Under the pieces are notes generated by a model. That model did not search any database. It was not told where the DNA came from and saw only the letters and a list, made by a program, of their open reading frames with translations. Below are positions 3 through 12,741 of a stretch of DNA of 39,439 bases, piece after piece. The stretch is from a virus: positions 1 to 39,439 of IMG/VR virus record IMGVR_UViG_3300008113_000196, one strand, 5' to 3'. Position numbers and translations under genes: made by a program. Numbering within the stretch: position 1 is the stretch's first letter; each line of letters begins with the position of its first letter.

Positions 3-2051
3 ATTATTGACATTCTACATTCAGTTCGTAGAGCTCAAGCGATTAACTCAAACATTAAGGAGGCGGGTTTGAAGTATATTACCAAATATATTGAGGCTGA
101 GGCTCCTGATCGTATTTATGTTGACCATGATAAGATTGGTCCTATGTACCGAGACAAAGAAGAGTATTGGTTAAATATTGAGAATGGTAAGTATAAGAAA
201 GTAGGACAAGATCCGAAGGTTGATGATGTTTGTGGAAGACATTCTAAAGTTTATATCAAAACAACGGGGGACGACATTATTGAGCGTTATCTTGACGATG
301 ACTTAGAAGAAACTTTATTGGTTGATGAAGAATTCAATCAAGGTTCATTCTTGTTGGCTTCATTACTTCCAACAACATATGAAAGAGTTTCAACGATGGG
401 TACCGCAACATTATGGAAAATGTTGATGTTAGCTTGGTCTTACAAACATAACTTGGCAATACCCGCTAAGAATGATAAAGGGAACTTCGTAGGAGGACTT
501 TCTCGATTGATCCGAACAGGATACTCAAGAAACGTATTAAAACTTGACTACTCGTCTTTGTATCCTTCCATTCAGTTGGTACACGATGTATTTCCTGAGT
601 GTGATGTAACAGGGGCAATGAAAGGTTTATTATCTTATTTCCGTAACACTCGTATCAAATACAAACAACTTGCTGAAGAATATGCAAGTATTGATAAAAA
701 GAAATCTACATCTTATGACCGTAAACAATTACCAATTAAAATCTTCATTAACTCAATGTTCGGTGCGTTGTCAGCTCCACAGGTATTCCATTGGGGTGAT
801 ATGGACAAAGGTGAAATGATTACTTGTACAGGTCGTCAGTATCTGATGATTACTTGTACAGGTCGTCAGTATCTTCGAATGATGATTCACTTCTTTATGG
901 ATCGTGGTTATACCCCTCTCGTAATGGACACGGACGGTATTAACTTCTCCGTACCTGAGGGGGTAGAAACAAGAAAGTATGTTGGTAAAGGTTTGAATTG
1001 GAAAGTTGTTGAGGGTAAAGAGTATGTTGGTGAAGAAGCTGACGTAATGGAATTTAACGATTTTGCAATGAGAGGTGAAATGGCACTTGATACTGATGGT
1101 CAGTGGCCGGCTTGTATTAACTTAGCTCGTAAGAACTACGCTTTGATTACTGCAAAAGGTAAGATCAAGCTCACAGGTAACTCAATCAAATCTAAGAAGA
1201 TGCCGATCTATATTGAGAAGTTCTTGGATAAAGGAATTAAGTTATTACTCGATGGTAAAGGACAAGAGTTTGTTGAGTGGTATTATGAATACGTACAAAA
1301 GATATTTGATCAAAAAATTCCTTTGATGGATATTGCAAACAAATCAAAAATTAAACAAACTATTGAGGATTATATAATTCGTAGTAAAACAAAAACTAAA
1401 GCAGGGGCATTGATGTCTCGTCAAGCACACATGGAGTTGGCTATCAAAGACAAACTAAATGCAAATCTTGGTGAGGTTATCTTCTATGTAAACAATGGTA
1501 CAAAGGCTTCTCACGGTGATGTTCAGAAAGTTAACAAACCAAAAAAAGGTTGGTCACAAGAACACATTGATAATTATATGAGAGATTGGGGAACAACAAT
1601 ACCTGAAAACGTAGATTCAATCATTCAGTTAAATTGTTATAGAATCGACCCGTCAGACATTGAGACTAACCCAACAATGACTGGTGAATACAATATACAA
1701 AGAGCAATTGCGACTTTTAACAAGCGAGTTGAACCTTTATTAGTTGTATTTAAACAAGAAGTTAGAAATGGTTTATTGGTTAAGAATCCCGAAGAAAGAC
1801 CATTCTTTACTAAAGATCAATGTGAGTTAATTAACGGACAACCATTTGATGAAGGTGATCAAGATAAATTAGAGGATGTGATGGAAATTTCTGATGAAGA
1901 AATGTCATTTTGGAATCGAGTAGGTGAAACACCATACCATATGTATAAAAACGCGGACCCTTATATGTGGAGGTATTTACCTGATGAGAATTTATTCCAT
2001 CTTGAGACCGTCGGAGGAGAGGATGTACCAAACACCATTAACGTGTTGTAA
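3..2051 (+). CDS. 43: Family B DNA polymerase (T4 gp43-like), 5' end outside the window
   Basis: Replicative DNA polymerase of the phage. The reading frame is open from base 3, so the gene begins upstream; the TTG at 69 is only an internal codon. The 3'-5' exonuclease domain expected at the N-terminus is therefore not visible. Polymerase motif A (LDYSSLYPSI, about 541-570), motif B (KIFINSMFG, about 738-764) and motif C (MDTDG, about 924-938) are present in the right order. Motif C reads DTDG where most family B enzymes have DTDS, but both catalytic aspartates are kept. Between motifs B and C a 10-residue segment (ITCTGRQYL plus one residue) occurs twice in tandem. The C-terminal 60 bases overlap the end of a convergent minus-strand gene. 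Family assignment is secure; whether the duplication leaves an active enzyme is unknown. Confidence 0.93.
   Translation: MIDILHSVRRAQAINSNIKEAGLKYITKYIEAEAPDRIYVDHDKIGPMYRDKEEYWLNIENGKYKKVGQDPKVDDVCGRHSKVYIKTTGDDIIERYLDDDLEETLLVDEEFNQGSFLLASLLPTTYERVSTMGTATLWKMLMLAWSYKHNLAIPAKNDKGNFVGGLSRLIRTGYSRNVLKLDYSSLYPSIQLVHDVFPECDVTGAMKGLLSYFRNTRIKYKQLAEEYASIDKKKSTSYDRKQLPIKIFINSMFGALSAPQVFHWGDMDKGEMITCTGRQYLMITCTGRQYLRMMIHFFMDRGYTPLVMDTDGINFSVPEGVETRKYVGKGLNWKVVEGKEYVGEEADVMEFNDFAMRGEMALDTDGQWPACINLARKNYALITAKGKIKLTGNSIKSKKMPIYIEKFLDKGIKLLLDGKGQEFVEWYYEYVQKIFDQKIPLMDIANKSKIKQTIEDYIIRSKTKTKAGALMSRQAHMELAIKDKLNANLGEVIFYVNNGTKASHGDVQKVNKPKKGWSQEHIDNYMRDWGTTIPENVDSIIQLNCYRIDPSDIETNPTMTGEYNIQRAIATFNKRVEPLLVVFKQEVRNGLLVKNPEERPFFTKDQCELINGQPFDEGDQDKLEDVMEISDEEMSFWNRVGETPYHMYKNADPYMWRYLPDENLFHLETVGGEDVPNTINVL
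816..874 (+). repeat. In-frame tandem duplication inside the polymerase gene
   Basis: Bases 816-844 and 846-874 are identical (29 of 29) at an offset of 30 bases, so the frame is kept. Each copy encodes ITCTGRQYL. The duplication lies in the palm between motifs B and C, where length is normally conserved. The lack of any mismatch between the copies means it is either very recent or an assembly artefact. Confidence 0.9.
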
Positions 2052-2342: not shown

Positions 2343-3470
2343 TTAAATTACATATATTTGTCTAGGCATTGCTCTAAACTTGAGGGTTTTATTTAAATTT
2401 TCCGCTAACAAAGCTTCTCTTTCCATTACTTTTTCAGGTCTCAATCTTGTCAATCTACCTTCAGCGCCTATCAATTCCTCAATAAGTTTGGTTTTTTCAT
2501 CTTTGGCCTCAGTCGCTAACGCCGCGTAATCCATGGTTAAATCTCCATCAGGAGTTTTTAAGTTACCACTGAATTTTCCACGTACTCTTGCTAAAGTTTC
2601 TTTACAGTAAGCGATAAACCATCTACGAACCCAAACTTGAGCCGGATTATTTAGTTTGTACCAACTTATTTTATTAAATGGAACATCTGATGGTAATAAT
2701 ACAATATCAGGATTGTCTGCCAAACATTTATCTCTATCACCTTGTGAAGTGTCGTAATACCAATACCAAACTTGTCCTTTTGACAATTCAGCATTACCAA
2801 AATCAAACTTACCACCGGGTGTGTTTAAAAGGTGTAACGCCTTTTTACCACCAGGAAGTGCTGTGATATAATATGTTAAATCACCCGCATATATTCTTCT
2901 TTGTATGTTAACCTCTTGCATTCTTAGTAATGTATCAAAGGCCGGTGTTAAATAATAACTTCCTGCCATGTTACCAATCTGAGCAAGACCTCCACCACCA
3001 CCAAGTCCTGTTCCGATACCCGCACCCGCAAAACCACCTAAACCAAACATTAAATTATTAAGTGTTGATGGTGTAAACCATAGTACTTCATTTATTTCAC
3101 GACCCGCAGGTATTTCGTAAATTTGTTGATTAGGTACTAATTGTATATAATCCTTTTTTATCTCCCAATCTCCACCTGCTTGTAAACCAACAATTTTTGA
3201 ATAAGCGTAAGTGTATCTAGTTTCGAAGTCTAAACTTTTGGTGATAAATGCTCGAGACAAAGACTGAGTATCTAAGTTTAAATTATTTAGGGTTGTCCAC
3301 TGAGATTCGATTAACCAATCTTGCACATATTGAGAATAGTCATCGATTGAATACTCCAATAAAGTATCCATCATTTCATCTTCCAATTCTACAGATCTTA
3401 AAGGTGCTCCCAATAAGTGTCTAACTTTTTGGTAGAATTGACTTCTTTCAGGTTCGTTGATTATTGCCAT
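2343..3470 (-). CDS. Putative neck / head-completion protein (gp13-like)
   Basis: A 375-residue protein. The N-terminus (RHLLGAPLRSVELEDEMMDT, residues 17-36) matches the pattern of head-tail connector and neck proteins, where a LGaP-x-(5)-L-(t/e)-(d/e)-(e/q) helix pair opens the protein; T4-like gp13 begins this way. In the middle a glycine-rich stretch (residues 143-170) probably forms a flexible loop or insertion. The rest is rich in aromatic residues, as in virion proteins. It has a perfect TATTTATA late-promoter motif 13 bases before its ATG. In T4, genes 13, 14 and 15 are adjacent; here the gp14-like and gp15-like candidates lie about 4 kb away on the other strand, so the cluster has been split by the helicase and SOD-fusion genes. 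The role is inferred from the N-terminal pattern and context. Confidence 0.55.
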   Translation of the reverse strand: MAIINEPERSQFYQKVRHLLGAPLRSVELEDEMMDTLLEYSIDDYSQYVQDWLIESQWTTLNNLNLDTQSLSRAFITKSLDFETRYTYAYSKIVGLQAGGDWEIKKDYIQLVPNQQIYEIPAGREINEVLWFTPSTLNNLMFGLGGFAGAGIGTGLGGGGGLAQIGNMAGSYYLTPAFDTLLRMQEVNIQRRIYAGDLTYYITALPGGKKALHLLNTPGGKFDFGNAELSKGQVWYWYYDTSQGDRDKCLADNPDIVLLPSDVPFNKISWYKLNNPAQVWVRRWFIAYCKETLARVRGKFSGNLKTPDGDLTMDYAALATEAKDEKTKLIEELIGAEGRLTRLRPEKVMEREALLAENLNKTLKFRAMPRQIYVI

Positions 3471-3483
3471 AATAGTTTTTTAA

Positions 3484-3491
3484 TATAAATA
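3484..3491 (-). promoter_or_regulatory. Late-promoter motif before the gp13-like gene
   Basis: Reads TATTTATA on the minus strand, preceded by GGAGA, 13 bases before the ATG at 3470. One of a family of identical or near-identical octamers in front of morphogenesis genes. Confidence 0.6.
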
Positions 3492-3505: not shown

Positions 3506-5698
3506 TTAAGGACAAACTATCTTTTTGGTTCTTGGACTTACTATTTTAATGACTGAAGGTACTAACGTTTTTGAATCAACAAATTTATAACCGTTTAATT
3601 CTGTTAAATCAGGATTTATTCTAAATCTAATTGCTAACCTTTTTTCTTCACAACCCCACTGACCTTTGTTTGACCAATAAAGATCGATGTATTTTGAAGG
3701 TACAACGTACTTATCTTCAAAAATTATTGCTGACATATTATCTTTAATATTTTTTAAAAATTCTTCACCCTCACTAGAATTTTGGATTTTATAATATACT
3801 CCGTCAATAACTTTATTATAAACATCAAGGTATTCTCCTTTAAGTTCTTTATTAGAACTTTGTTTAAAAATCGCAAAAAATTCAGACAAATAACTATCAA
3901 CTAAAGGATCCATTTTTTTTGCTTCAACTCCTGACGATGAAGGAATTACAACATTACCCTCAGGATCCAAAAGATCTTGTTTTGATAGAACATCTCGTTT
4001 TATTGGTTTATCTAAAGATCTCATAGTTTCTAAAACACATTTAGTAATACTATTTACCAAAGTTTCTATTGTAAGTTCTTTAGATCCTATCTTTCTCAAA
4101 AGTTTTGGTATAGTGTCTTTGGGGTCTTCCCCACACCTATAATTTAAAGTTAGTTTTGTTGGAGACAGTTCAAAAAAGTCACCATCTAAACTTTGCTCGT
4201 GTTCAGAGTGTTCAGAGGATCTCATTTTTCTTGTTAGTTTATCTAACAACTCAATATCATCAATATCAAAATCATTTTTTAAATTCAGTAAAATTTTATA
4301 TAATCGATTTTTTTTGTGTTTAGGGTCATTTATAAATTCAGCAATTAAACTAATAAAGTTGATTGGATTATCATGCTCAAGAGATAATTTAATTATGTAA
4401 GGGAATGGACCTAAAATTTTTCTACCAAAAAATTTATCTAATTGTATAATAGATGAATCCAGTGAACGTTTTAAATATTCATCATCTAAATTATCTCGTA
4501 ATTCTTGTAATTTACAATACGGAGAATCAACCATTCCTTTTTTATTAGAATAACTACATAATTTACCCAAAGTTATGTCCGTAAATTGTGCAATCTCATT
4601 GATTTGTTTTTTTTCTTTTTTTATTTTAGATAAAAATAAATCGTTAACAAACTCCCAATTTACAACATCCCAAAACTTTTTTATGTATTCATCACGTTTG
4701 TTTTGATACTTCAAATAATAGGCATGTTCCCAAACGTCAAGACCAAGTAAAGGAAACCCACCACCTTTTACAATATTCATAAGTGGATTATCCTGATTGG
4801 GTGTAGACATTATTTTAAGTTTTCCATCTTTGGCCAAATATAACCAAGCCCATCCCGAACCAAATCGATCTTTTGCTGCTTGATTAAATTCGTCTTTCAT
4901 TTTTTTAATATTACCAAAATCTTGAGTTATCTTTTTTAATATCTCACCTTTTGGTAGTTGTTTTTTTGGTGACAACATTTTCCAAAATAAAGCGTGATTA
5001 AAAGCACCTCCAGCATTATTTCTTACTTTATTATCAAACTTACTAATGGTTCTGACAATATCTTCTAAACTTATGTCAATATCTTTATTTTTTAATGAAT
5101 CATTTAACTTATCTACATATCCTTTATAGTGTTTGTTATAATGAATATCCATCGTTTTAGAATCAATAAATCTTTTGAGAGATGAATATGAATACGGTAA
5201 CTTTTCGATACCAATTTTTTTCATTTCAACAATTAAATTTTCTTTAATAGATCCCTTCTCAACTAGTAATATTTGTTCCAATAAAAGGTTTGATTTACCA
5301 ACAACACCTTTGTTTTCATACATGATTTCTTCTAAATCAGGATATTTTTTTTCAAATTTTTTAATGATTTGTCCTGCAAATGCATTTGCTTCATCTTCGT
5401 TTTGACCACCAATATCAGGACCCTGTTTTCTTTTTTGAATTGACATTTGAAATTCGTGGACCCATTCATGAGCAAGGGTTCTCATAATATCTCTGTTAAG
5501 TCTATCTTTCGCTAAAATTTTGATTAGATGATCATCTCTCCTACTTCCTGTCGACATTTCCCCTTTTCTACCATTCAAGAATGCAATTGTCAAATTTTCT
5601 TTAAGAGGATACTCTTTTTGTAATAAGTTAATAAACTTATCTACAAAATCTTTGTATTTTTTTATTTCTTTGTTTTCGTACTTTATTGAAACTTTCAT
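3506..5698 (-). CDS. Zinc metallopeptidase / Mn-superoxide dismutase fusion protein
   Basis: A 730-residue multidomain protein. Residues about 20-130 hold a zincin-type peptidase with HEWVH (77-81) and a downstream EANAFA (glutamate 103) that resembles the third zinc ligand in ImmA/IrrE-like peptidases. Residues about 167-355 are a complete iron/manganese superoxide dismutase, starting at LPYSYSSL. All four metal ligands are present (H186, H235, D321, H325), as are the second-sphere H190 and Y194. The motif DVWEHAYY is intact. The outer-sphere pattern is of the manganese type: glycine at 231 and glutamine at 302 in NQD. Residues 356-730 match nothing I recognise. I chose the ATG at 5698 rather than one 24 bases upstream because the late-promoter motif TATTTATC ends 4 bases before it. 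It lies 29 bases after the helicase gene and before the gp13-like gene. Domain calls are firm; the biological role is unknown. Confidence 0.9.
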   Translation of the reverse strand: MKVSIKYENKEIKKYKDFVDKFINLLQKEYPLKENLTIAFLNGRKGEMSTGSRRDDHLIKILAKDRLNRDIMRTLAHEWVHEFQMSIQKRKQGPDIGGQNEDEANAFAGQIIKKFEKKYPDLEEIMYENKGVVGKSNLLLEQILLVEKGSIKENLIVEMKKIGIEKLPYSYSSLKRFIDSKTMDIHYNKHYKGYVDKLNDSLKNKDIDISLEDIVRTISKFDNKVRNNAGGAFNHALFWKMLSPKKQLPKGEILKKITQDFGNIKKMKDEFNQAAKDRFGSGWAWLYLAKDGKLKIMSTPNQDNPLMNIVKGGGFPLLGLDVWEHAYYLKYQNKRDEYIKKFWDVVNWEFVNDLFLSKIKKEKKQINEIAQFTDITLGKLCSYSNKKGMVDSPYCKLQELRDNLDDEYLKRSLDSSIIQLDKFFGRKILGPFPYIIKLSLEHDNPINFISLIAEFINDPKHKKNRLYKILLNLKNDFDIDDIELLDKLTRKMRSSEHSEHEQSLDGDFFELSPTKLTLNYRCGEDPKDTIPKLLRKIGSKELTIETLVNSITKCVLETMRSLDKPIKRDVLSKQDLLDPEGNVVIPSSSGVEAKKMDPLVDSYLSEFFAIFKQSSNKELKGEYLDVYNKVIDGVYYKIQNSSEGEEFLKNIKDNMSAIIFEDKYVVPSKYIDLYWSNKGQWGCEEKRLAIRFRINPDLTELNGYKFVDSKTLVPSVIKIVSPRTKKIVCP

Positions 5699-5702
5699 CC
5701 TT

Positions 5703-5710
5703 GATAAATA
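5703..5710 (-). promoter_or_regulatory. Late-promoter motif before the SOD-fusion gene
   Basis: TATTTATC on the minus strand, ending 4 bases before the ATG at 5698. This spacing implies an mRNA with almost no leader and supports the shorter start. Confidence 0.6.
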
Positions 5711-5727
5711 TCTTAAATACAAGAAGT

Positions 5728-7494
5728 TTATCTTTGTTTGTTTATTAAGGTTAATATTTCCTCAACAATATCACCAGTACTATGTGTAATTTGATCACCC
5801 ATAACGGTTCTAATTATCTCTTTCTTCTTATTTAAGATATCATATATAACTCCCTCTATTGTATTTTCAAATAAAGGATAGTAAACCAACACATTTGATT
5901 TTTGACCGTAACGATAGGCTCTATCTTCGGCTTGTGCATGTTCCGCAGGTACGAAAGATAAGTCGTTCATTATGACAACCTCAGCGGCGGTTAGGGTTAA
6001 ACCAACACCCGCAGCCTTCAAGTTACCGACAAAAACCCTTACCTTCTCATCATTTTGAAATGAGTCAACTGCTTGTTGACGCATTGCGTTTGAACAGCTA
6101 CCATCAAGATAAACCGCTTGTTTTCCAAAATGTTGATATATTGTTTGGAGGGTATCTGTAAAGTTGGTAAATATAATAACCTTTTTACCTTGTTCTAAAA
6201 TATTTTCAGCAAAATCAATCGTTTGTTTTGTTTTTTCGTTCGCAATAACCTTTCTAACTTTCATCAGTTTTGAGAATTGGACCGTAAGAGATGAAGATTC
6301 GTCAGGGTTTCTATCGTACCAATCAAAATATTCACCCATTAAATCTTCATATTCTTTAGATTTTAACCGTAAATAAACAGGTGTGATTATTTTATCAGGT
6401 AAATCTAATACATCTTCTTTTAGTCTACGAAGAATTTGTTTAGATGTTCTATCTCTCAATTCCTCAAGGTTAGAAGCTCCCGATACATTCCAAACTTTTC
6501 TTTTTCCTGCAGTAAATTGGAAACCTTGACAATAACGTATAGCGTAAGCTTTCCAATTTTGAGCCACTGGACTTTCAATGATACTCAAAAGATTGTAATA
6601 GTTCATAGGACGTGAAGTCATTGGTGTACCAGTTAATAACCAAACACGATCTATTTTTTTAGTAAAACTGTTTATAATTTTTGTTCTTTGAGCCTGAACA
6701 TTTGAGATCATGTGTGCTTCGTCAAGAATTACTAAATCAAATCCACTTTTTAATAATAAAGAATCCTCTTTCTTTTTTGGATCTGAATCATGGAAATTTT
6801 TAAGAATATCATAATTTACAATAACAAAATCAGATTCGGTTGAAAACTTTTTACCTTCTGCAATGAAAACGGTTTTATCTGAATAATTTGCAATTTCTCG
6901 TTGCCAGTTAATTTTTAAAGATGCGGGACAAACAATTAAAACTTTTTTTGCTTCTGTCTCTAAGGCGGCAATAATAGTTGAAGTTGTTTTCCCTAACCCC
7001 ATGTCGTCAGCAAGAATAAATCTTTTAGAACCCGCTAATTTTTCTATCGCAATTTTTTGATGAGATAACGGAGGGCGATGAGAATATTTCGAATATTCAA
7101 TATTAACCTGTTGTACATTATGTGTTTTTATTAGTGCGGATTTTGGTACCCAAAACTCACTTAATTTATCAGATTCAAAAAACTTACCCCAAACGTGATA
7201 TGATTTTTCTTTTTCAACCAAAAGTTTTTCAATAAAAATTTTTTCAGGAACTTGTAATAGGTATCGTTCTTCGGCAAACTTTTTTGCAAAATATGAATCC
7301 AAATCAACCCACTTACGAGCGACTTTAGGTGAGGTGTTGTAATGTGTTGTTATATATTCAGCCTGACTCCTTGTTGGGTAAAATTTTTGTGAAACATCTT
7401 TTTTGTTCTTCAAATAAAGTATATAGTTATTCGCGCCACTGTAACTATCAAGCAGTTCTAAGGCTTTATGTTCAATAAGTGTTTTAGACTCCAA
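5728..7494 (-). CDS. SNF2-family DNA helicase/translocase (SMARCAL1-like)
   Basis: A 588-residue superfamily 2 ATPase. Visible motifs: the Q-region and motif I with Walker A DDMGLGKT (163-170), motif II DEAH (258-261), motif III LLTGTP (286-291), and in the second RecA-like domain the motif VI QAEDRAYRYGQ (521-531), which is typical of SNF2 proteins. It most resembles the compact SMARCAL1/ZRANB3-type annealing helicases common in phages, and may do the job of T4 UvsW in fork remodelling and recombination; that is an inference. The start is TTG at 7494; an in-frame stop lies 4 codons upstream and no ATG occurs near the N-terminus after the first codon. Divergent from the gp14-like gene, with 57 bases between them. 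No late motif is seen on its own strand, so it may be expressed earlier. Confidence 0.9.
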   Translation of the reverse strand: MESKTLIEHKALELLDSYSGANNYILYLKNKKDVSQKFYPTRSQAEYITTHYNTSPKVARKWVDLDSYFAKKFAEERYLLQVPEKIFIEKLLVEKEKSYHVWGKFFESDKLSEFWVPKSALIKTHNVQQVNIEYSKYSHRPPLSHQKIAIEKLAGSKRFILADDMGLGKTTSTIIAALETEAKKVLIVCPASLKINWQREIANYSDKTVFIAEGKKFSTESDFVIVNYDILKNFHDSDPKKKEDSLLLKSGFDLVILDEAHMISNVQAQRTKIINSFTKKIDRVWLLTGTPMTSRPMNYYNLLSIIESPVAQNWKAYAIRYCQGFQFTAGKRKVWNVSGASNLEELRDRTSKQILRRLKEDVLDLPDKIITPVYLRLKSKEYEDLMGEYFDWYDRNPDESSSLTVQFSKLMKVRKVIANEKTKQTIDFAENILEQGKKVIIFTNFTDTLQTIYQHFGKQAVYLDGSCSNAMRQQAVDSFQNDEKVRVFVGNLKAAGVGLTLTAAEVVIMNDLSFVPAEHAQAEDRAYRYGQKSNVLVYYPLFENTIEGVIYDILNKKKEIIRTVMGDQITHSTGDIVEEILTLINKQR

Positions 7495-9390: not shown

Positions 9391-12300
9391 ATGGCAACTA
9401 ACAGTAAAGTTTTTGTTTCACCGGGTGTATACACCTCAGAAGTAGATCTTAGCTTTGTGGCACAGAGTGTTGGGGTGACGACTTTAGGTATCGTTGGTGA
9501 GACTTTAATTGGTCCAGCCTTTGAACCAATCTTCATCACAAATTTTGATGAATTCCAAACAGTATTTGGTGGGACTTCACCTGAAAAATTTGTTAACACA
9601 CAAATCCCAAAGTATGAGGCTTCATACATAGCTAAAGCATACTTACAACAATCAAATCAATTATTTGTAACAAGAATCTTAGGATTATCAGGATATGATG
9701 CAGGACCATCTTGGTCTATCACCACAGTCGCAAACGTAAACCCAACAACAATTGGTCAATATTGTTTGAGTTCTGTAACTGATTATACTACATGTGTTAC
9801 AACTTGTGTAACTCCTAAAGTATTAACATTCACAGTAGATTTTACAGGATGTACAAACAGTATTGATACAATAATGTTTGAAACTTTATTTCCTTCAGAA
9901 ATCGAGGACATTTTAACAACTCAGTTTGAACAGTTTAATGGGTCTACTTCAACACTTGACGATGAAATTAAAACATTGATTTATAATGTCATAACTGACG
10001 CAACACCATACACTGCTGAGGATGAATTGATTTCATATTTTGGTTCTATTGACACAGACGACTATAATATTTTAAGTGGTGCTGGTTGGACCGCAGAAAC
10101 TAATGTTTTCAACGTACCATCAGTTTCATTAGATGATACAAACTTATCATCTTCACTTAATGATCCTTGGTATTATGCATTGTTTACAAACAACGGTAAT
10201 ACAAATTATTCAGGGTTTTCGTTCTATACGTTTGTTTCAGGACTTACGGCATATTACCCAACACCTACACCTACACCAGGAGCTTCGTCTTCGCCAACAC
10301 CAACACCGTCATTTATAAATCCGTGTATTACTCCTTCACCATTCATTTCACCAACTCCTACACCTACACCTGTTAATATAGATTGTTATACGGGTACTGT
10401 TGTTGGTAAAATTTATTATTATACAGGAACATCATACGTGGATTATGATAACGTAGTTGTTGCAACATTAAGATCAAGAGGTATTTCAACATACACAACA
10501 GACAACAACCCTGCATATTCTGTAACGGCAACAACAGACGCTAGTTTAGATATGACAGGTCAATATGCTGGTGTTCTTAAAAATCCTTACTTGACTTTTG
10601 GTGTGAATTGTATTGATAAGTTTGGACAAAACTTCTTCTTTGAAACATCTTTAACTCAAAATGACCCTGAATACATTTCTAAAGTATTTGGTATTACCAA
10701 TTTCCAAAAACCAAGAATTGAAGTTCCTCTATTCAATGAGGAAGTTTTCCAATCATGGTTAAATTATTCATGGAGAAAAGGATATGTTAGAGGTCTTAAC
10801 CCTAACTTTATTGAATTAGATTCTGCACAAAGTGGTGATCCTAACTCAATTGGTTGGTATTTGGATAGATATCAAACACCTAACTCTCCTTGGGTTGTTT
10901 CTGAATTAAGAGGTAATAAAGTTTATGACTTATTTAGATTCTATACTATTTCTGATGGTGATGCCGCAAATACTTTAATAAAAGTTTCAATTGTCAATCA
11001 AACATACTCAAACTTAACTTTTGATGTGTTAATTCGTGATTATTTTGATACTGATGCGAATCCTGTGGTTATTGAGAAATTTACTAATTGTACAATGGAT
11101 CCAGGACAAAATAACTTCATTGCCAACAAAATTGGTACACTTGATGGAGAATACATATTGAATTCTAAATACGTTATGGTTGAGATGAATGAGGACGCAC
11201 CAGTAGACGCTCTTCCTTGTGGATTCAACGGATTTAACTTTAGAAATTATGCAGGAGCTAACTCACCATTCCCTATCATTAAAGGAAAATATGACTTCCC
11301 TGGTGAAGTAATCTACGATCCACCATTTGGTCTATCTTCAGGAAACAACGACGCTTTAGTTAGTTCAGGAGATAATGTTAGAAGAACTTATTTAGGTATA
11401 TCTAATAGTTTAGGTTGGGACCCTGCTTACTTCGAATATGTTGGTAAGAGAAACCCAATCAATTCTTGTGATATCGATGGTTTACCATTCAATTACAGAT
11501 CAGCTGGTTTCCACATGGACGTAAATGCTAGTGGTATCACAATTGGACCTGAGTTCTCAACAAGTGGTGACCCAAGATTTATCTGTGGTAATTCACCATT
11601 CATTACAGAACCTGAACTTCCAACAAACGCATACTACAGATTGTTCGCACGTAAGTTTACATTCTTAGTACAAGGCGGATTTGACGGATGGGATATCTAC
11701 AGAGAATACAGAACTAATACGGACCAATTCCAAATTGGTAGAGCCGGATTCTTAAGAGGGGCTTGTCCTTCAACTAGATACCCTAACGCAACAGGATGGG
11801 GAGCATTCAAAGAGATATCTCTTGGTGATGGTACTCAAAACTTTGCAAATACTGACTATTACGCTTACTTGTTAGGTCAACAAACATTCTCTAACCCTGA
11901 AGCGGTTAACATTAACGTGTTTGTTACACCAGGTATTGACTATGTAAATAACAGTAATCTTGTTGAAGCGGCGGTTGAGATGATTGAGTTCAACAGAGCA
12001 GATTCATTATACATCTGTACAACCCCTGACTATGACCTTTATAGTCCTACAACTACAGGTCTTGATTTATTTATCTACCCAACTGAAGCGGTTGATAACT
12101 TAGATAATACAGGAATTGACTCTAACTACACAGCCACTTACTATCCGTGGGTATTAACAAGAGATAGTGTAAATAACACACAAATCTACATCCCACCGAC
12201 AGCTGAGGTAACAAGAAACTTAGCATTGACAGATAATATAGCATTCCCTTGGTTTGCGGCGGCAGGTTATACTCGTGGTATTGTTAACTGTGTTAAGGCT

Positions 12301-12741
12301 CGTAAGAAGTTGACACAAGAAGATAGAGACATCCTTTACGTAGGTAGAATTAACCCAATCGCAACCTTCTCTGACGTAGGTACAGTAATTTGGGGTAACA
12401 AAACTTTACAAGTAAGAGAATCGGCTCTTGACAGAATCAACGTTAGAAGATTGTTGTTACAAGCTCGTAAGTTGATTTCAGCAGTATCTGTAAGATTGTT
12501 ATTTGAACAAAACGACGCACAAGTAAGACAAGACTTCTTAAATGCGGTTAATCCAATCTTAGATGCGATTAGAAGAGACCGTGGTTTATATGACTTCCGT
12601 GTTACGGTTTCTTCAGATCCTGAAGATTTAGATAGAAACCAAATGACTGGTAAGATCTATATTAAACCTACAAGATCTCTTGAATTCATCGACATTACAT
12701 TCTACATCACTCCAACAGGAGCTTCGTTTGAGAATATATAA
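9391..12741 (+). CDS. 18: Contractile tail sheath protein (gp18-like)
   Basis: Major sheath protein that contracts around the tube during injection. The N-terminus FVSPGVYTSEVDLS (residues 8-21) followed by GVTTLGIVGETLIGPAFEP is the classic sheath start, and the C-terminal 150 residues (from about RKKLTQEDRDILY) match the sheath assembly domain. At 1116 residues it is far longer than T4 gp18 (659). The extra length lies mainly in an insertion at about residues 118-395 that contains a Pro-Thr linker (about 289-332), cysteine-containing segments and threonine-rich stretches; this probably projects from the sheath surface. Followed by a strong terminator at 12761-12787, so it is probably the end of a highly expressed transcript. 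Confidence 0.92.
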   Translation: MATNSKVFVSPGVYTSEVDLSFVAQSVGVTTLGIVGETLIGPAFEPIFITNFDEFQTVFGGTSPEKFVNTQIPKYEASYIAKAYLQQSNQLFVTRILGLSGYDAGPSWSITTVANVNPTTIGQYCLSSVTDYTTCVTTCVTPKVLTFTVDFTGCTNSIDTIMFETLFPSEIEDILTTQFEQFNGSTSTLDDEIKTLIYNVITDATPYTAEDELISYFGSIDTDDYNILSGAGWTAETNVFNVPSVSLDDTNLSSSLNDPWYYALFTNNGNTNYSGFSFYTFVSGLTAYYPTPTPTPGASSSPTPTPSFINPCITPSPFISPTPTPTPVNIDCYTGTVVGKIYYYTGTSYVDYDNVVVATLRSRGISTYTTDNNPAYSVTATTDASLDMTGQYAGVLKNPYLTFGVNCIDKFGQNFFFETSLTQNDPEYISKVFGITNFQKPRIEVPLFNEEVFQSWLNYSWRKGYVRGLNPNFIELDSAQSGDPNSIGWYLDRYQTPNSPWVVSELRGNKVYDLFRFYTISDGDAANTLIKVSIVNQTYSNLTFDVLIRDYFDTDANPVVIEKFTNCTMDPGQNNFIANKIGTLDGEYILNSKYVMVEMNEDAPVDALPCGFNGFNFRNYAGANSPFPIIKGKYDFPGEVIYDPPFGLSSGNNDALVSSGDNVRRTYLGISNSLGWDPAYFEYVGKRNPINSCDIDGLPFNYRSAGFHMDVNASGITIGPEFSTSGDPRFICGNSPFITEPELPTNAYYRLFARKFTFLVQGGFDGWDIYREYRTNTDQFQIGRAGFLRGACPSTRYPNATGWGAFKEISLGDGTQNFANTDYYAYLLGQQTFSNPEAVNINVFVTPGIDYVNNSNLVEAAVEMIEFNRADSLYICTTPDYDLYSPTTTGLDLFIYPTEAVDNLDNTGIDSNYTATYYPWVLTRDSVNNTQIYIPPTAEVTRNLALTDNIAFPWFAAAGYTRGIVNCVKARKKLTQEDRDILYVGRINPIATFSDVGTVIWGNKTLQVRESALDRINVRRLLLQARKLISAVSVRLLFEQNDAQVRQDFLNAVNPILDAIRRDRGLYDFRVTVSSDPEDLDRNQMTGKIYIKPTRSLEFIDITFYITPTGASFENI
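10255..10378 (+). repeat. Pro-Thr repeat linker in the sheath protein
   Basis: Codes for short runs of alternating Pro and Thr (PTPTPTP, SPTPTP, SPTPTPTP) interrupted by short spacers, at sheath residues about 289-332. Such linkers are extended and join surface domains. The DNA is a degenerate repeat of CCTACA/CCAACA. Confidence 0.85.

Follow-up and report, generated by a model that had tools for sequence, protein, structure and literature searches.

Why does a phage gene join a peptidase-like domain, a superoxide dismutase (SOD) and a long domain of no known family in a single reading frame, and what might become of the product? The gene in question occupies 3506..5698 on the minus strand of a 39,439-base virus record (the window, meaning the whole stretch analysed), which is part of a T4-like genome. 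It runs from an ATG at 5698 to a stop codon at 3508-3506, the frame being open throughout, and encodes 730 aa comprising a zincin-like peptidase, a Mn-type SOD and a C-terminal domain here called tail A; an in-frame TTG at 5722 would lengthen the product by 8 aa. Above cut-off, Pfam finds only Sod_Fe_N and Sod_Fe_C in it, with no match in aa 1-150 or aa 365-730, and searches of the protein with PADLOC and NCBIfam returned nothing except the SOD. The AlphaFold2 model of the whole protein has a mean pLDDT of 74 and a pTM of 0.41.

Directly upstream of the fusion gene lies a gene for an SNF2-type helicase (5728..7494, minus strand) and directly downstream a head-tail adaptor (neck) gene (2343..3470, minus strand), the latter recognised by a match to phrog_211 (E = 1.5e-9) and by synteny. 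Scanning 2.9 million viral contigs, we retrieved 132 that encode relatives, from which 80 loci were kept and examined. Peptidase and SOD share one frame in nearly all of these, the exceptions being one locus split by a stop (L042) and one cut by the contig end (L063). The close copies include one at 99.7% identity (L001, in another contig) and one at 88% (L002). The gene order helicase > fusion gene > adaptor > g115 < PolB is conserved in the listed loci, except where a contig breaks off or where, in a few places, an extra ORF intervenes. The peptidase-SOD fusion is real and not a chance event. It is carried by many uncultured T4-like lake phages; among 50,697 isolated phages it was found in none, the matches there spanning the SOD only or the peptidase only.

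The N-terminal domain (aa 1-127; 5318..5698, minus strand) bears HEWVH at aa 77-81. In an alignment of 11 diverse sequences, drawn from fused, ParB-like-fused and standalone relatives, H77, E78, H81 and E101 are among the 13 invariant columns. We propose H77, H81 and E101 as zinc ligands, the role of E101 as third ligand being inferred, and E78 as the catalytic residue. The relevant profile matches are all to zincins (M78, SprT-like, Spartan and a venom metalloproteinase) and all weak; the Pfam models Peptidase_M78 and SprT-like gave no clear match, the best being M78 at E = 9e-4 for two of the 11 members. For this reason we term the domain zincin-like and assign it to no family. SODs took up all the results when the complete model was searched for similar folds, and a known fold for the peptidase domain is thereby not excluded. 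Twelve copies, each about 129 aa long, stand alone; they end exactly at the C-terminal boundary of the domain, at the 'MYE' that precedes the first linker in the fusion, and sit in other gene neighbourhoods with no SOD nearby. The T4-like cyanophages S-SRM01 (QPX48222.1) and B23 (QGT54943.1) also have the homologue as a separate gene; these HExxH proteins of 124-132 aa differ from the fusion in lacking an SOD and in their genomic context, and their function is unknown. In L096, L098 and L100 (about 4947-5990) the peptidase domain is joined to a C-terminal part that appears ParB-like by eye (GNTRL), the linker between them holding [L/I]-x-E.

The SOD domain (about aa 159-357; 4628..5224, minus strand) matches Sod_Fe_N (PF00081) at aa 165-243 (E = 2e-20; 73.4 bits, gathering score 27) and Sod_Fe_C (PF02777) at aa 249-353 (E = 4e-41; 139.6 bits, gathering score 20.9). 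In the PDB it comes closest to 6gsc, a Mn-SOD of Sphingobacterium (E = 8e-64, aligned over aa 166-355), and the AlphaFold2 model compares with SOD structures at Z = 17 across about aa 150-360. The metal ligands H186, H235, D321 and H325 are all present, as are the second-sphere residues Y194 and H190 and the dimer-bridge E324. Q302 (in NQDNP) and G230-G231, the GG before the second histidine, are marks of the Mn type. Every SOD motif check (ligands, Q302, Y194, H190, E324) was passed in 48 of 51 distinct sequences. By its residues the domain is of the Mn type; that it binds metal and acts as a dismutase is inferred from sequence.

An earlier note, made from the bare sequence, had described just such a content: a zinc peptidase motif with a likely third ligand, an SOD with every metal ligand and the Mn-type outer-sphere glutamine, and a long unrecognised region. 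All of this held, the likely third ligand being E101, which is invariant in fused and standalone relatives alike. Loss of metal binding in the modelled site would, it said, refute the reading; the ligand residues are intact in the sequence. Its statement that SODs are rare in phages has to be corrected, as they are also found in the PA5oct group and in Vibrio phage 2.275. The SOD-like proteins of Pseudomonas phage PA5oct (QCG76142.1, a record bearing the note ESI-MS/MS) and Vibrio phage 2.275 (AUS02630.1) resemble ours in being Fe/Mn SOD homologues of large phages, but they are only 27-31% identical, standalone and in the company of other genes.

The nearest cellular SODs, 50-57% identical to the SOD domain, are those of Bacteroidota (Chitinophagaceae and others). 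In a tree computed with IQ-TREE the phage SODs of the locus form one clade (100/100, stem 0.74) in Bacteroidota-dominated surroundings, a single badly cut row excepted. The Bacteroidota Fe/Mn SODs, similar as they are and neighbours of the phage clade in the tree, differ in that their phage counterparts either belong to a fusion or begin with an [L/I]-x-E leader in place of a signal peptide, and stand on a long branch. The cellular SODs were picked by similarity and the donor is therefore not fixed; placements of the partial rows, namely PA5oct, Vibrio phage and L177 (the last probably wrongly cut), were ignored. We infer that the host is probably a member of the Bacteroidota. Eight of nine large contigs contain exactly one SOD.

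Tail A (aa 379-730; 3509..4564, minus strand) has no known family or fold. The peptidase-SOD core stays the same, but close relatives differ in their C-terminal domain, which may be any of four types or missing altogether: among 51 distinct sequences there are 19 with tail A, 14 with tail B, three with tail D, two with tail C and 13 with none. L003 has tail A and L030 no tail, yet their cores are 97% identical; similarly, L004 has tail A and L031 tail B on cores 93% identical. Other relatives encode tail A on its own, immediately downstream of an SOD gene at this locus, and in still other places it is joined to unrelated N-termini. What had been described as an unknown 370-residue domain is better seen as an exchangeable module, one that some relatives encode as a gene in its own right. 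Since the whole-model fold search had been filled by SODs, tail A was modelled alone, giving a good model (pLDDT 82) and no match in Pfam, PHROG, PDB sequences or PDB folds. D204 and E227-x-K229 are invariant in its alignment, which alone does not establish a PD-(D/E)XK nuclease. Tails B and E, homologous to each other by hhalign (probability 94, E = 1e-7), show E...GxD...QxK in the order of PD-(D/E)XK nucleases, a motif reading only and one without any Pfam or PDB match. Weak matches of tail profiles to Influenza haemagglutinin and nucleoprotein were judged chance. Six proteins with tail A on unrelated N-termini (L214, L216, L217, L220, L254, L255) reach 995 aa and have further domains, with a second HExxH in one of them. 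Tails E and A are separate genes at locus L241 of the 282 kb contig G018, in which no SOD was found.

The domains are separated by two linkers which contain the two longest very-low-confidence stretches of the model and are predicted to be disordered. Linker 1 (aa 128-158; 5225..5317, minus strand; pLDDT <50 across 128-155) contains four [L/I]-x-E sites, LLE139-141, LVE145-147, IKE151-153 and IVE156-158, and linker 2 (aa 358-378; 4565..4627, minus strand; pLDDT <50 across 361-373) contains INE366-368. These confirm the motifs LLLEQ and QINEI which the earlier note saw flanking the SOD. Across the family, linker 1 has 11.1 [IL]xE per 100 aa (26 representatives, <90% identity) and linker 2 has 6.9 (16 tailed sequences), compared with densities of only 0.64 for the peptidase, 0.62 for the SOD and 1.06 for the tails. 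When each linker is set against shuffled versions of itself, the z-scores are 10.2 and 6.5, respectively; these overstate significance, the family members being related, but the contrast with the neighbouring domains is large nonetheless. The pair E158-M159 is invariant in 32 aligned sequences. It must be borne in mind that the motif is short and also common in helices.

T4 gp21 cuts after L/I-X-E, and phiKZ propeptides carry redundant cleavage sites (PMC9026906). As the window is a fragment without major head genes of its own, including those for capsid and protease, these were read in relatives. Peptidase_S77, the gp21 family, is present in five of 15 relatives' contigs, among them contigs of 272 and 296 kb; in the former (G001) PHROGs identify a capsid protein, head maturation protease (E = 1e-42), portal, terminase and sheath. 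In six relatives the major capsid protein begins with a presumed propeptide of 60 residues, which contains LLE, IKE, LKE, LYE and INE/A(T/S) (here and below a slash before a residue marks a presumed boundary), and the linker words IKEN, LKE, INEIA and LLEQ match it. In some relatives the same locus encodes an SOD without the peptidase, preceded by a leader of about 30 aa that ends in [L/I]-x-E, and these leader-only SODs are nested within the phage SOD clade. Their leaders end FINE/M, LITE/M or LITE/I, as in ...KENEKLFINE/MKKIG (L227) and ...SNELLITE/IKKIS (L353); that of L231, MEKLKLKSQKIEKQILLAEKQDVKETLITE/MKKIGIEKLPY, resembles linker 1 of the fusions. A cut at the end of the L231 leader would leave eight residues ahead of LPY, and among the cellular SODs retrieved by similarity the closest Met ahead of this point is most often seven residues away (7 of 59), although many of these have an export-signal-like N-terminus. 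Processing by a prohead protease at sites flanking the SOD had been offered as speculation; it proves the best-supported point, strengthened by the confinement of [L/I]-x-E to linkers, the gp21-type protease in relatives, the capsid-propeptide words and the leader-only SODs, with cleavage itself remaining inferred.

The G001 proteome has an N-terminal-proximal [IL]xE in 110 of 285 proteins, against 70 +/- 7 in shuffles, and a basic tag ending xE in 24, against 0.3 expected. Dozens of small proteins of this contig (L256-L269) bear recurrent N-terminal tags, mostly ending [L/I/V]-x-E; examples are MKRIVRLTESDLxRIVRRVINEE, MKIIITEDQYxxL, MNLQEQIRRILKEE and MKELIRHILKEE. Conceivably these are head-cargo tags.

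Right ahead of the start codon on the coding strand is ATATTTAT (5704..5711, minus strand, read 5711-5704), a motif common to head and tail genes and kept here in 22 of 23 relatives. Reverse-complemented, ATATTTAT gives the T4 late promoter word; it is strongly enriched near start codons in G001. In that contig 96 of 280 genes have TATTTAT in the 60 nt ahead of them, against 19.6 expected, and the motif precedes the sheath, portal, gp21, terminase and adaptor (neck) genes; it is absent upstream of the capsid gene. It is found on 17 of 24 tagged genes but on 79 of 256 others (Fisher P = 2e-4). The earlier claim of a late motif is only partly upheld: TATAAATA (3484-3491) lies on the plus strand, downstream of the fusion gene, and the coding-strand motif is TATTTAT. 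The T4-oriented late promoter TATAAATA (TATAAAT) was rejected, since it is not enriched upstream of genes in G001. The shared upstream motif fits late expression, its role being inferred.

The reading we favour, with moderate confidence, is that of a late polyprotein which is packaged in the head and cut there with release of the SOD. In this view the product, made by a T4-like phage probably of Bacteroidota, would enter the assembling prohead, where a gp21-type phage protease would cut after [L/I]-x-E in both disordered linkers. Cleavage after E158 would yield a free SOD starting M159-KKIGIEKLPYSY, near the start of cytosolic SODs; cleavage after E368 would free the C-terminal domain, an exchangeable cargo, and the peptidase domain would come off on the N side. 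The freed Mn-SOD would remain in the capsid and clear superoxide around the packaged genome, or enter the host with the DNA. The domains, their fusion and conservation, the linker motifs, the protease gene in relatives and the common upstream motif are shown by computation; packaging, cleavage, activity and purpose are inferred. The suggestion that the protein is virion-associated or late-acting is supported only by sequence evidence, its location in the virion being inferred, and our literature search yielded no direct report of a phage SOD in virions and no virion proteomics for these phages. Against packaging, the protein starts with the peptidase domain and has no N-terminal T4-type capsid-targeting tag of 10-20 residues, the presumed targeting leader being internal (aa 128-158); against a head role, the helicase gene next to it does not belong to the head genes.

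Other explanations deserve consideration. That a chimeric assembly joined separate genes, for instance at about 5200 or 4634, would have refuted the earlier reading, as would absence of the fusion from all related phages. In favour of a chimera, tail A and SOD are separate neighbouring genes in some relatives and a lost stop codon could join them. The objection fails because the fusion recurs at one syntenic position in independent contigs: the same joins are seen in many of these, from different samples and at 55-99% identity, so that a chimera is refuted for the core and as a whole all but ruled out, and about 80 loci carry the fusion. A more serious rival holds that the protein is a late enzyme that acts only in the infected cell, guarding replication or late metabolism from superoxide and remaining unpackaged; the fusion would be mere convenience and the [L/I]-x-E words ordinary helix sequence. 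Plain SOD genes do occur beside non-head genes (topoisomerase in Vibrio phage 2.275, ClpS in the PA5oct group) and the fusion gene itself lies between helicase and neck genes. Nevertheless, the motif is limited to the two disordered linkers and rare in the domains, leader-only SODs retain the site and capsid propeptides have the same words, and we consider this rival unlikely.

Less likely still is self-processing, in which the HEWVH domain would cut the linkers with no involvement of the gp21-type protease. The conservation of H77, H81 and E101 speaks for it, as does the fact that in fused forms the peptidase domain always adjoins the linker. However, leader-only SODs retain [L/I]-x-E without a peptidase domain in the gene, the large contig G017, which has such an SOD, contains no detectable peptidase homologue, and standalone peptidases exist without an SOD nearby. 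Less probable again is the idea that the SOD fold serves only as a structural part and catalyses nothing: the SOD does belong to a large fusion beside head genes, but its ligands, Q302, Y194, H190 and E324 are intact in nearly all distinct sequences.

On the packaging-and-cleavage reading, the protein would work like a T4 internal head protein, though its targeting leader is internal and we therefore do not class it with those proteins. With IPI-III and Alt of T4 (PMC9026906) it shares predicted cleavage at [L/I]-x-E by a protease of the gp21 type, an expression motif in common with head genes, and a constant part with variable cargo. The T4 targeting peptide, in contrast, is N-terminal and of 10-19 residues (PMC9026906), whereas the leader of the fusion lies between peptidase and enzyme, and a complete Mn-SOD is part of what it carries. 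The inner-body and ejection proteins of phiKZ and SPN3US (PMC5694885, PMC9026906) are similar in having long propeptides with several redundant sites ahead of the cargo, but the phiKZ motif is S/A-x-E, its protease typifies another MEROPS family (S80), and no SOD is described in the sections of those papers bearing on the matter.

A bolder reading is that the maturation protease cuts one head-packed precursor into three parts, a metallopeptidase, a functional Mn-SOD and a C-terminal effector of exchangeable type, and that each of them is delivered together with the genome. We are inclined to doubt this more than to believe it; by analogy, the swapping recalls polymorphic toxins, in which different cargoes are mounted on one unchanging carrier. 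Were packaging true, the phage particle would carry a ready-made antioxidant enzyme, raising the question of which superoxide the phage meets, that of sunlit water or of an oxidative burst at infection, and there would be a route for loading several enzymes from one gene via head maturation. A search rule would also follow, as the dozens of unknown proteins with [L/I]-x-E tags in these genomes may be head cargo.

Some smaller features may be recorded. In L064 and L066 several extra ORFs of 150-180 aa, possibly paralogues, flank the fusion gene, beside the 150-aa tail C. The PolB ORF of the window (69-2051) contains a tandem duplication, MITCTGRQYL-MITCTGRQYL, possibly an assembly fault. The tail sheath (9391-12741), recognised through a relative's homologue that bears this name, is T4-type and very long (1116 aa), with inserts of Pro-Thr repeats.
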